In this document: positions 3,098 through 24,645 of the stretch, in pieces
How the letters are laid out: every line of letters starts with the position of its first letter
How positions within the stretch are numbered: the stretch's first letter is position 1
From: a virus
Direction: 5' to 3' (one strand)
IMG/VR virus record: IMGVR_UViG_3300043256_000305
Coordinates: 1 to 41,518 of that record
DNA length: 41,518 bases
Notes under the pieces: model-generated
The model's input: only the letters and a program-made list of their open reading frames with translations
What the model was told of the DNA's origin: nothing
Databases searched by the model: none
Program-made: the position numbers and the translations under genes

Positions 3098-3730
3098 TTA
3101 CCGCGCCACCCTCAATCGGTTGATGTGCCCGGGCGAACCCGTTCCTCGCGGTACGAGGCCGGCAGCGGCGTAGAGCGCAGCCGACGCCTCCGCCGCAGTT
3201 GCCCGGCATACCTTCTGTTGGGGCGTGTAGCCCCATGTGGTGTATAGGACGGTTATTACGAAGCCGCAGCGAGCGGCGACCTCGACTAGCGTCGGGGTTC
3301 GGCCAAGCTCGGCACGCAGGGCGCGTAGCGCCGCTACCTGCGCGGCCCTGCGGGCGCCCAATCGGTGCTCGAGTTCGACGCGTTGAAGCAGTCGTCGCTC
3401 GGCCCGTTGTTCGGCCAGCTCGCGGAAGCGGAACCGCCCGAGCCGGCCGTCCCATACGCGCGGCTTCGTGCCGCTGGTGTAGGCGATGCCGAGCCGCACG
3501 GCCTTCTGCCGCACGCGCTCGCAGCTGAGCCCGAACATCAGGGCGATGTCCGTCAGGCCGTACCCCTCGTTGATCAGCAGCCACACGTCGTCGGTTGTCA
3601 TCGGCGACCTACACCAACACCTTCCCGCGCGCCGATCCTCCTTGGAGCACTGGCACCAGAACGAGCGGTTGAGTTCCGCGATCTCAGCACGCGACTCCGC
3701 GCTATCCTCTGGCCACGTAATGCGCCTCAT
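3098..3730 (-). CDS. phage transcription regulator with sigma-like HTH motifs
   Basis: 210 residues; last gene of the leftward operon, with its ATG overlapping the upstream stop by 4 bp. The N-terminus has a cysteine cluster (WCQCSKEDRRAGRCWC, about 25-40), a possible zinc site. Residues about 50-82 form a helix-turn-helix whose second helix, FGLSCERVRQ, resembles sigma region 4 (GLSRERVRQ). A second HTH-like segment, TLVEVAARCGFVITVLY, sits near 150-166, after an Arg-rich coiled-coil stretch. It probably binds DNA and could be the repressor or activator of this phage. The family was not identified. Confidence 0.65.
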   Translation of the reverse strand: MRRITWPEDSAESRAEIAELNRSFWCQCSKEDRRAGRCWCRSPMTTDDVWLLINEGYGLTDIALMFGLSCERVRQKAVRLGIAYTSGTKPRVWDGRLGRFRFRELAEQRAERRLLQRVELEHRLGARRAAQVAALRALRAELGRTPTLVEVAARCGFVITVLYTTWGYTPQQKVCRATAAEASAALYAAAGLVPRGTGSPGHINRLRVAR

Positions 3731-21083: not shown

Positions 21084-21461
21084 GTGCCGATCCGGCCCGA
21101 GAACCTCGAGCTGTATCCGCCGGACTGGCCGCTCATCAGTGACCGGATCCGATTCGAGCGCGCCGGCGGCCGCTGCGAGTGCTTCGGCGAGTGCGGCCAC
21201 GACCACGAGGGCCGATGCAGGGCCGAGCACAACCGCGCCCACCCGGTCACCGGGTCGCTCGTCACGCTGACGACCGGGCACCTCGATCACTCGCCGGAGG
21301 ATTGCGACAACCCGGGCGGCCGCTTCATCTTGCTTCCGCTGGCGCACAGCAACCTGCGGGCCTGGTGCCAGCGATGCCACCTGGCCCACGACCGCGACCA
21401 TCACGCCGCGACGGCCGCGGCGACCCGCGAGCGCAACAAGGAGCAGATCGGCCTATGGTAG
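21084..21461 (+). CDS. HNH endonuclease
   Basis: 125 residues from GTG 21084 (VPIRPENLELYPPDWPLIS, the usual beginning of this phage HNH type); a TTG at 21072 is possible. Zinc and catalytic features: CECFGECGHDHEGRC, the LTTGHLDHSPEDCDN core with the HNH histidines and aspartate, NLRAWCQRCHLAHD, and C-terminal H-x-H. Phage HNH nucleases near terminase genes often help packaging or nick DNA. Here it overlaps a methyltransferase gene that could protect its targets. Confidence 0.85.
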   Translation: MPIRPENLELYPPDWPLISDRIRFERAGGRCECFGECGHDHEGRCRAEHNRAHPVTGSLVTLTTGHLDHSPEDCDNPGGRFILLPLAHSNLRAWCQRCHLAHDRDHHAATAAATRERNKEQIGLW

Positions 21462-22798
21462 CGAAGAAGCGGAGGAGGAAGACGACGTCGCCGCCGGCGG
21501 AGCGGCGTCGCAAGGCCGCGGCCGCGAACGTAGCTCACATCAGCAAGGACCTGCGCTTGCTCGCTCGCCAGATGTCGCGGCTCCGGCCGGACCCGGACAA
21601 CGTGCGGCTCCACGACGAACGGAACATCGAGACGATTCGGGCGAGCCTCGCCGAGCATGGTCAACAGAAGCCGATCGTACTACAACCGGACGGCAAGACA
21701 GTGGCGGCCGGATCCGGCACGCTGCTCGCCGCCCGACTCCTTGGCTGGAAGTGGATCGCGGCCATCAGGTACGATCGGGATCCGGGCGCCGTGGCGGCCT
21801 ACGCCGTCACCGACAACCGCTCGGCCGAGCTCGCGACCTGGGACGCCGCCGCGTTGCTGCGCCTCTTCAAGCACTACGACGACATGGAGAACGGCCGCGA
21901 CCTCGTGCCCGGGTGGACCGAGGCGGAGATCCAGCTATTACTGCCGGGAATGAAGGAAACCACAGAGGACGAGGCCCCTGGCCCACCGGCGGCCCCTGTT
22001 AGCGTGTCCGGCGAGATCTACGAGCTGGGCCCCCACCGCCTACTGTGCGGCGATTCAATGGCACCGGAGGCCGTGTCGGCCCTTTGCTTGGCAAGCTCGG
22101 CCCCCGACCCCGAGGTGTTTTGGACTGATCCACCGTATGGGGTAGCCTATACGGGTAGAACCCAAAAGGCGCTGACGATGGACAACGACGCTGGGAAAGG
22201 ATTGCGGGAATTTCTCTCGTCAGCCTTTCGAGCGGCAGACGCCATCCTTGCGCCAGGCGCTCGGTTCTATGTTGCGGCCCCGCCGGGGCCGCACAATCTG
22301 ATCTTCCGGCTTGCCCTGCAGGACGTTGGCTGGCGATTCCACCAGGGTCTCGTGTGGGTGAAGCACTTGATGGTCCTTGGTCACTCGGATTATCACATGA
22401 GGCACGAGGATCTTTTGTACGGGTGGAAGCCCGGCAGCGGCCGGCTGGGTCGTGGACGGCATAAGGGCAGCCGTTGGTACGGCGGACACGACAAGAATAC
22501 CGTTTTTGAGATTGATCGGCCCTCCCGCAGCGAAGAGCATCCTACTATGAAGCCGGTCGAGCTTGTGGTGCGTTGCCTTCGAAACAGCAGCAAGAGGGGC
22601 GACGTCGTCTACGACCCGTTCGTCGGATCCGGCACGACGATCATCGCTGCCGAGCAGACGGAACGCATCTGTTATGCCGTCGAGATCGACCCCGGCTACT
22701 GCGACGTGACGCGCCAGCGGTACGCGAACTTCGTCGGGGATCCGGCGTACAGCCCGACCGGAAAGCTTGACAAACCGTCGGCCGATGGCGCCGGATAG
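21455..22798 (+). CDS. ParB-like domain fused to adenine-type DNA methyltransferase
   Basis: 447 residues; ATG overlaps the HNH stop by 7 bp. Residues about 38-165 are a ParB/sulfiredoxin-like domain (LRPDPDNVRLHD, later VAAGSGTLLAARLLGW in place of the GERR box, then AVTDNRSAE). The methyltransferase follows: motif IV DPPY at 225-228, then HPTMKPVEL (362-370) and the SAM-binding DPFVGSGTT (387-395). Motif IV precedes motif I, as in beta-class amino-methyltransferases. This fusion is common in phages and prophages. It probably methylates adenine (N6); target unknown. Confidence 0.85.
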   Translation: MVAKKRRRKTTSPPAERRRKAAAANVAHISKDLRLLARQMSRLRPDPDNVRLHDERNIETIRASLAEHGQQKPIVLQPDGKTVAAGSGTLLAARLLGWKWIAAIRYDRDPGAVAAYAVTDNRSAELATWDAAALLRLFKHYDDMENGRDLVPGWTEAEIQLLLPGMKETTEDEAPGPPAAPVSVSGEIYELGPHRLLCGDSMAPEAVSALCLASSAPDPEVFWTDPPYGVAYTGRTQKALTMDNDAGKGLREFLSSAFRAADAILAPGARFYVAAPPGPHNLIFRLALQDVGWRFHQGLVWVKHLMVLGHSDYHMRHEDLLYGWKPGSGRLGRGRHKGSRWYGGHDKNTVFEIDRPSRSEEHPTMKPVELVVRCLRNSSKRGDVVYDPFVGSGTTIIAAEQTERICYAVEIDPGYCDVTRQRYANFVGDPAYSPTGKLDKPSADGAG

Positions 22799-22819: not shown

Positions 22820-23659
22820 ATGGATGATACGCGATCCCGTGGACGAAAGAAACGAGCGAAGCCGACGCCCGCCCAGCGCGCCGCCTGGAAGGCCGAGAAG
22901 CAGGCCCGGGGTTCGGGTAAGCCGATCGAGGGGCGCTGCGGCCGGAAACTCGGCGGCACCGACCCGCCGCGGTACTGCAAGAAATACCCGGCGAAAGGCC
23001 GGCTCCGGTGCAAGACGAAGGGCCACGGTGGCGACGCGAAGCGCGGGGCCGAGTCGCCGAGCTTCGTCCACGGCCAGCGATCGAGCCTCTACGCCGACGT
23101 GCTCGGCGGCGCCCTGCGGCGCGGCTACGAGGCGATCCAGACGGACGAGGAGCTGCTGTCGTGCCAGGAGCAGATCAAGCTCTGGACCGGCCGCGAGCGG
23201 CAACTCGTCGAACAGCTCTCGGGCCCCGGCGTGATCGACGGGCAGGCGGTGCGGGCCACGATGGCGAAGGTCGACGCCGTCTCAGCGATGCCCTCGGAGA
23301 CCGAGGAGGAGCAGCAGAAGCGCGGCGCCGCACTGATCAAGGCGTGGGACGAGCACCGGCAGGCCGTCAAGCGGCTCGCCGCCGACGAGGCGGCCTGGCG
23401 CCAGGTCGAGGTCGCCGGCCGGATGCTCGTCCGGTTCCGGCGCGAGGAGCGCCGGCTCATGGAGGCGCGGCATCTAGTCATGACGGTCGACAAGGTCCTC
23501 TACCTGGCCGCCCTACTCACGGCGCTGGCGATGAAGCATATCGTCGATCCGGCTGCGCGGGCGCGGTTCTGCGAGGACGCGAAGCTGCTCGAGGCCGGCC
23601 ACGCCGTCGAGATCGACGCCGAGCTGATCGAGGGCGTGTGGGTCGGGAGGAGGCGGTGA
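22820..23659 (+). CDS. zinc-motif packaging-associated protein, small-terminase candidate
   Basis: 279 residues from ATG 22820. The N-terminal third has basic Lys/Arg residues, then CGRKLGGTDPPRYCKKYP and RCKTKGHGGDAKRGAESP with SFVHGQRSSLY. This Cys/His pattern ending in HGG and HGxxS is frequent in phage proteins encoded just upstream of large terminase. The remainder is long helices, including a coiled coil (about 100-230). Position (a methyltransferase away from terL) and architecture fit a small terminase or other DNA-recognition packaging factor; this is an inference. Confidence 0.6.
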   Translation: MDDTRSRGRKKRAKPTPAQRAAWKAEKQARGSGKPIEGRCGRKLGGTDPPRYCKKYPAKGRLRCKTKGHGGDAKRGAESPSFVHGQRSSLYADVLGGALRRGYEAIQTDEELLSCQEQIKLWTGRERQLVEQLSGPGVIDGQAVRATMAKVDAVSAMPSETEEEQQKRGAALIKAWDEHRQAVKRLAADEAAWRQVEVAGRMLVRFRREERRLMEARHLVMTVDKVLYLAALLTALAMKHIVDPAARARFCEDAKLLEAGHAVEIDAELIEGVWVGRRR

Positions 23660-24631
23660 ATGTGGATTCTTCCCCGCTCGCCGTCCTTTCCCTCTGCTCC
23701 GGCGGAGGAGGGCTCGACCTCGGCCTCGAGTTGGCGGTCGGATCTGCTCGCGTCGTCTGCTTCGTTGAATGGGACGCATTCGCCGTCAGCCAGTTGGTCA
23801 CGCAGATGGAAGCGGGCACCGTGGCTCCGGCTCCTTTATGGACGGATCTCCGAACCTTCGACGGCCGAGCGTGGCGTGGCCGAGTGGATTGCGTCACTGC
23901 CGGATACCCATGCCAGCCATTCAGCCAGGCCGGTAAACGAGCTGGCGAGGACGATGCGCGTCACCTGTGGCCCGAAGTTTATCGAGTGGTGCGGGAGGTA
24001 CGTCCCCGACTCGTCTTTCTGGAAAATGTCGCAGGGCACGTTGGACTTGGGCTTGGAGGAGTCCTCCGAGATCTCGACCGAGCAGGTTACCGAGTTACGG
24101 CGACTCTCGTCAGGGCTTCGGATGTGGGCGCACCGCACCAACGGGAACGCGTCTTCATCCTCGGAATCATGGGCGACACCGGAAGCGATGGTGAGGGACA
24201 ACACAACGCGTCGAACCCCGGCGCCAGGGAGAGCGGAAGGAACGCGACACGGGGAGAGCCCGACGGGAATGATGCCGGACGGGACGAAGCGGCAAGTCGA
24301 TCTCCAACACCAAGTGCGACTGTGGCAAACACCGAACGTAATGGACAGCAGCAATCGCATGATTCAGAACCAGAGGGGCGATCCGACAAAGCCAGTGCCG
24401 ACACTTGCTGGTCAGTGCCGCTCTTTCCCCCAGGCCCCAGCGACCTCGACGCCTGGAGACGAATCCTCGAATACGACCCCAGCCTCTCGCCGGCGCTTGA
24501 ACCCCCGTTTCGTTTGCTGGCTGATGGGGTGGCCGCTGATCGGCGGCAATGGCTCCGACTCCTTGGGAACGGAGTCGTGCCGCTTCAAGCGGCGTATGCG
24601 TTCACGGCTCTCGCGATTGGTCTCGGACTGA
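23660..24631 (+). CDS. gene-like frame nested in the cytosine methyltransferase gene
   Basis: 323 residues, +1 frame relative to the methyltransferase and almost entirely inside it. Its ATG at 23660 lies 6 nt after AGGAGG, ideal spacing, and overlaps the methyltransferase GTG as ATGTG. The translation carries motifs I know from phage protein families: SLPDTHASHS (79-88), FWKMSQGTL (120-128), ELRRLSSGLRMWAHRT (145-160), SWATPEAMVRD (170-180), LWQTPNVMD (221-229) and LNPRFVCWLMGWP (280-292). The last is also found in frame at the ends of some phage cytosine methyltransferases. Several codons of the host gene here are AT-ending, unlike the genome. It may be a real overprinted gene or a fossil of a frame change. 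Confidence 0.5.
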   Translation: MWILPRSPSFPSAPAEEGSTSASSWRSDLLASSASLNGTHSPSASWSRRWKRAPWLRLLYGRISEPSTAERGVAEWIASLPDTHASHSARPVNELARTMRVTCGPKFIEWCGRYVPDSSFWKMSQGTLDLGLEESSEISTEQVTELRRLSSGLRMWAHRTNGNASSSSESWATPEAMVRDNTTRRTPAPGRAEGTRHGESPTGMMPDGTKRQVDLQHQVRLWQTPNVMDSSNRMIQNQRGDPTKPVPTLAGQCRSFPQAPATSTPGDESSNTTPASRRRLNPRFVCWLMGWPLIGGNGSDSLGTESCRFKRRMRSRLSRLVSD

Positions 24632-24645
24632 TGGAGGTTGAGTGA
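23662..24645 (+). CDS. dcm: DNA (cytosine-5) methyltransferase
   Basis: 327 residues from GTG 23662 (8 nt after AGGAGG); GTG 23656 is in frame but too close to the SD. Motif I LSLCSGGGGLDLGLE (9-23), motif IV with catalytic Cys in GYPCQPFSQAG (C84), motif VI ENV (121-123), motif VIII QRERVF (160-165), and motif X-like GNGVVPLQAAYAF near the end. Methylates cytosine at C5 using SAM, probably protecting phage DNA from restriction. The middle (about 170-265) is a hydrophilic low-complexity region that overlaps the second reading frame. Composition is lower in GC than flanking genes. The stop overlaps the terminase start. Confidence 0.9.
   Translation: MDSSPLAVLSLCSGGGGLDLGLELAVGSARVVCFVEWDAFAVSQLVTQMEAGTVAPAPLWTDLRTFDGRAWRGRVDCVTAGYPCQPFSQAGKRAGEDDARHLWPEVYRVVREVRPRLVFLENVAGHVGLGLGGVLRDLDRAGYRVTATLVRASDVGAPHQRERVFILGIMGDTGSDGEGQHNASNPGARESGRNATRGEPDGNDAGRDEAASRSPTPSATVANTERNGQQQSHDSEPEGRSDKASADTCWSVPLFPPGPSDLDAWRRILEYDPSLSPALEPPFRLLADGVAADRRQWLRLLGNGVVPLQAAYAFTALAIGLGLMEVE

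Follow-up and report, generated by a model that had tools for sequence, protein, structure and literature searches.

A candidate two-polypeptide cytosine-5 DNA methyltransferase encoded by coincident reading frames in a phage genome

In the cytosine methyltransferase M.EcoHK31I, of which M.EaeI is a relative, the beta polypeptide is encoded in an alternative frame overlapping that of alpha. M.AquI is another natural two-subunit cytosine methyltransferase, with the catalytic motifs I-VIII on one subunit and both motif IX and motif X on the other. In M.EcoHK31I (YGGCCR), motifs I-VIII and X are found on the large polypeptide and motif IX on the small one (PMC3404938). The locus described here lies in the IMG/VR virus record IMGVR_UViG_3300043256_000305, of which all 41,518 nucleotides were analysed (the window). 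A gene for the core of a cytosine-5 DNA methyltransferase, termed alpha, is covered there almost from end to end by an open reading frame (ORF) in the +1 frame, termed beta. Both are probably genes of one cytosine-5 DNA methyltransferase composed of two polypeptides that are encoded by the same DNA. The frames appear to divide the enzyme between them; alpha would provide motifs I-VIII and X, and beta would provide motif IX and the part that follows motif VIII, the expected place of the target recognition domain.

M.EcoHK31I is the closest known case, sharing with this locus, as compared by description, motif IX on the second polypeptide and motifs I-VIII and X on the first. It differs in that beta here starts 2 nucleotides before alpha and runs almost its full length, and in that the region 3' of alpha motif VIII (zone 2) is under constraint as beta sequence and filler-like as alpha sequence, which does not fit a recognition domain on the large subunit. 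From the M.AquI type, the window and the other loci of its class are set apart by the position of motif X in the alpha frame. A further likeness is found in gene 58 of Escherichia phage N15 and its Klebsiella and Xanthomonas phage relatives, where an alpha gene is overlapped by a +1 ORF with W-x-T-P motifs and LNPxxSRWLMG, but the beta ORF starts inside alpha, while the two frames of the window share their start region. In N15 itself (locus L106, positions 1972-2697), this ORF is unannotated, has 242 codons, contains LNPHHSRWLMG and is a beta candidate. No description of the present overlap was found in the literature searched, and the main text of the GeneTack frame-transition survey contains no cytosine DNA methyltransferase cluster. 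What is new here, as far as the predicted frames go, is the near end-to-end coincidence from starts 2 nucleotides apart and its phage-wide occurrence, at about 190 phage and prophage loci.

Both frames lie on the plus strand. Beta (23660..24631) has an ATG start and encodes 323 amino acids plus stop; alpha (23662..24645) has a GTG start and encodes 327 amino acids plus stop. A Shine-Dalgarno-like AGGAGG (23648..23653) is common to both, and the starts overlap in the sequence ATGTG (23660..23664), with the beta ATG at 23660 and the alpha GTG at 23662. In these respects an earlier sequence-only reading of the locus, which had reported a +1 ORF of 323 codons with ATG, a shared Shine-Dalgarno sequence and the ATGTG overlap, was accurate. 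The start is conserved among relatives as (A/G)TGTGG, and the 2-nucleotide offset is their commonest arrangement (89 loci). Among 54 non-redundant loci, the pentamer DTGTG has its first start codon in frame with beta in 30, the remaining registers accounting for 6 and 1, and the beta residues W2 and P6 are invariant or nearly so.

The alpha protein matches PHROG 363 (E 4.2e-62) and, over residues 7-176, PF00145 (E 3.2e-35). The latter match covers profile positions 2-168 of 324 and ends after motif VIII. Motifs I, IV (PCQ), VI (ENV) and VIII of C5 methyltransferases are all present; motif IV, PCQPFS, with the catalytic cysteine, is encoded at 23908..23925. Motif X, GNGVVPLQAAYAF, at 24565..24603, is strongly conserved among alpha proteins, and both frames are constrained there in relatives. 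In the PF00145 test the alpha chain did not show the complete set of target recognition region, motif IX and motif X, motif IX being located in the +1 frame. When an alpha/beta/alpha sequence was spliced, the PF00145 match extended over positions 2-315 with 131.5 bits, a gain of 9 bits over the 122.6 bits of alpha alone; on NCBIfam TIGR00675 it brought no gain (97.2 versus 97.1 bits). The AlphaFold2 model of alpha is confident to about residue 173, with a predicted local distance difference test score (pLDDT) below 50 at residues 175-249. It matched M.HhaI over 174 columns (foldseek E 2.4e-15), and a profile search of the PDB with alpha matched the HhaI and HaeIII methylases at residues 6-177 only.

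Beta matches PHROG 1008 (E 1.6e-15) and PHROG 27243 (E 2.8e-11) and no Pfam family; both PHROG families are matched by all 58 diverse beta sequences. PHROG 1008 carries the name DNA methyltransferase; unlike beta of the window, its profile extends over motif X as well, as in AquI-like forms. The identification of PHROG 27243, a family of no known function, as the predicted beta is new here. Motif IX of beta, LNPRFVxWLMGWP (in the window LNPRFVCWLMGWP, 24497..24535), is invariant or nearly invariant among 58-68 beta proteins and is modelled as a helix at residues 282-289, in a block of mean pLDDT 92. Zone 2 (24163..24420) encodes WATP at 24170 and WQTP at 24323 in beta and filler in alpha. W-x-[TS]-[PA] motifs occur one to seven times per beta, mostly two to four times, among non-redundant loci and are rare in alpha. 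By analogy with multispecific phage methyltransferases, the W-x-T-P motifs may be recognition modules.

Related loci were drawn from viral contigs and bacterial genomes, with beta, alpha and a beta alignment as queries. Of these, 221 were sorted into classes by profile hidden Markov models for motifs I-VIII of alpha, motif X of alpha and motif IX of beta. The fetching was in part selective for beta, and the E-values of the loci obtained are subject to selection, as are some of the classes. In 189 loci, beta is open across alpha motifs I-VIII at the same +1 offset and contains motif IX, and alpha is intact and contains motif X; the same architecture was found in 67 of the 80 loci fetched with alpha only. 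The same parts are put in one chain in three loci (L091, L094, L101), while seven are AquI-like, with IX and X together in beta (among them L096, L102 and L104). At L210 (2200-3282), a single ORF runs from motifs I-VIII through a W-x-T-P region to motif IX, and motif X is read in a different frame; this would be either a natural fusion or an indel.

Selection in the two frames was estimated with an OLGenie-like estimator of our own, in which sites and differences nonsynonymous (N) or synonymous (S) in either frame were counted as NN, NS, SN and SS; the division into zones was upheld when 26 groups were tested. In windows over motifs I-VIII of 18 loci of group R, alpha dNN/dSN is near 0.1 and beta dNN/dNS 0.6-1.1. 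Right after motif VIII the values are 1.6-2.5 for alpha and 0.2 for beta, and at the 3' end both ratios are low. For the 41 loci of the whole group, beta and alpha ratios are 0.70 and 0.12 in zone 1 (motifs I-VIII), 0.28 and 0.69 in zone 2, and 0.21 and 0.30 in zone 3 (the 3' end). Since beta is shifted by one base, alpha position 1 is the beta wobble position and alpha position 3 the second position of beta. In zone 2, differences by alpha position were distributed 0.50:0.22:0.28, 0.51:0.26:0.23, 0.45:0.26:0.29 and 0.74:0.15:0.11 in four well-aligned groups, compared with 0.19:0.13:0.68 in the flanking-gene control, whose non-overlapped genes give a null beta-like ratio of 0.79. Among relatives of N15 gene 58 type, those from Xanthomonas phages show the same signature after motif VIII ([19,5,2]). 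By these patterns, clear constraint over motifs I-VIII falls on alpha alone; in the variable region it falls on beta, and at the 3' end on the two together. Purifying selection in both frames, which the sequence-only reading had proposed to look for in homologous loci, is thus present zone by zone in relatives and extends to the window by homology. Over motifs I-VIII, beta dNN/dNS (0.62-0.70) is close to the control value, so beta amino acids would be near neutral there; selection on them, with a ratio only slightly below control, is not established. Translation confirmed that PCQPFS and beta THASHS (23906-23923) are written on the same bases, but beta is not constrained at this overlap; in this part it would mainly have to stay open.

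That it does stay open is seen in the relatives. Of 59 loci, 57 have no stop in the beta frame over motifs I-VIII, whereas synonymous resampling leads one to expect 4.7. The alpha frame is stop-free in zone 2 in 54 of 54 loci against 6.0 expected, a value that is illustrative since the loci were preselected as intact. Stops in the +1 frame beside an intact dcm would have spoken against a second gene; among non-redundant loci fetched with alpha only, each of five overlap families has 0 stops, and three families of other architecture have 3-4. Since stops are avoided in either frame even in stretches where its amino acids are almost unconstrained, and since the overlapping start is conserved, two full-length proteins are probably made. 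The unusual codon usage ascribed to dcm was also found: GC content at third codon positions in alpha is 0.63, 0.55 and 0.67 in the three zones, compared with 0.91-0.97 in four of five other window genes checked, the N4/N6 methyltransferase gene having 0.73.

It is scarcely credible that alpha alone is functional and that the long +1 frame simply follows from the GC-rich composition and the codon usage of alpha. Many long spurious ORFs do occur in this GC-rich window, and for the window by itself the lack of a +1 stop is mildly unlikely (P = 0.03-0.04, synonymous-codon resampling). This explanation is largely contradicted by the zone 2 substitution pattern relative to the control, with alpha weakly or not constrained there, by the +1 stops in single-chain or AquI-like families, and by phage Samy, in which beta homologues are annotated as separate genes. 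A chance open frame was rejected on the stop avoidance across relatives and the zone 2 pattern. It is very unlikely, too, that beta is a separate protein of other function, such as a regulator or an anti-restriction protein, which overlaps the methyltransferase by happenstance. While the want of a Pfam match or a confident fold for beta would agree with this, alpha is devoid of motif IX, which is in beta, and constraint on the variable region of alpha is weak or absent; where relatives have a single-chain or AquI-like enzyme, the corresponding segment is situated inside the methyltransferase.

Programmed frameshifting, by which translation would start in alpha and shift by +1 after motif VIII to give a single fused chain with the beta recognition region and motif IX, is an unlikely but more serious alternative. 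The constrained frame switches just at the end of motif VIII, the spliced sequence scores higher on PF00145, and the ORF of L210 provides a natural single chain of this composition. However, no conserved slippery sequence is present at the junction in 54 non-redundant loci, where only the codons expected for FILA are found, and with motif X back in the alpha frame a second shift would be required. Frameshifting would also leave the beta stop avoidance upstream of the junction and the conserved beta start unexplained. Stop avoidance, the conserved start, W2 and P6, and the want of a conserved slippery site argue, short of proof, for separate initiation of the two frames.

Several observations weigh against a two-polypeptide enzyme. 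The model of beta alone is of low quality, at a mean pLDDT of 56, and its confident helices are confined to motif IX and the C-terminus; a structure search with it gave no PDB match, and the beta profile had no meaningful hit among PDB sequences. Because of this poor model and the missing PDB match, the assignment of beta to the small domain is based on motif IX and position and not on fold. For M.EcoHK31I, the predicted target recognition domain is on the large subunit and not on beta (PMC3404938). The window is without a close relative, the alpha proteins of its relatives being about 36-57% identical, so that its own zones are assigned by homology. Several groups (L003, L126), too diverged or badly aligned in zone 2, have no clear beta bias there. 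In a few loci alpha is broken (L009, L168, L188), as in L009 by a stop at 3342-3344 after the motif IV region with beta still open, and in L082, L162, L180 and L012 indels swap the frames inside the gene, either through sequencing error or in decaying copies.

For the two-polypeptide enzyme, the following course of events is proposed. One Shine-Dalgarno sequence would load ribosomes, which would start either at the ATG of beta or, 2 nucleotides on, at the GTG of alpha. Alpha would fold as the large catalytic domain, containing the S-adenosylmethionine site, the catalytic PCQ and motifs I-VIII, followed by unstructured filler and then motif X. Beta would consist of a mostly unconstrained N-terminal stretch, followed by the target-recognition region and motif IX as the small domain, which would recognize the DNA. 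The two polypeptides would assemble into one active enzyme, a heterodimer, which would methylate phage DNA and probably serve to evade host restriction. The sequence-only reading had also considered an overprinted gene and a fossil of a frame switch. For the former, PHROG 1008 and 27243 homology, stop avoidance and codon-position tests support a real second frame that constrains the first, but the products would be complementary parts of an enzyme, not two independent proteins. A fossil does not hold for most loci, since both frames are now under selection. As an origin, a frame transition in the past, starting from a single-chain enzyme, is plausible, because LNPxFVxWLMGWP is motif IX and occurs in frame in ordinary enzymes.

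In most cases gene callers annotate just one of the frames, and one of the two subunits tends to be dropped. In Synechococcus phage Ssp-JY39 only beta is annotated ('hypothetical protein'), while in Synechococcus phage Yong-M2-251, at the locus giving the same match, only alpha is. Beta is annotated in Acidovorax phage Alfacinha1, and both frames are in Xanthomonas phage PhiXhv-28. Upstream in the window (21179-22798), a ParB-like domain is fused to an N4/N6 DNA methyltransferase (PF01555, PHROG 498), so that the phage has two DNA methyltransferases near each other.

On balance, though with less assurance than for the locus itself, a phage-wide gene class seems to be represented, in which coincident frames 2 nucleotides apart share one ribosome-binding site and each half-enzyme pads the other; the variable W-x-T-P array of beta may set or multiply specificity. 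The arrangement would be one of the longest overlaps of same-strand genes in phages and one of the most widespread, with selection resolved for each zone and each frame nearly free where the other is used. It would explain the apparent want of a recognition domain and motif IX in these methyltransferases and give PHROG 27243 a role, and the two Synechococcus phages, annotated in opposite frames, illustrate how a subunit is lost from annotation. It would also offer a natural system for dual initiation at ATGTG and for the evolution of split enzymes, with single-chain, AquI-like, nested and coincident forms as possible intermediates.
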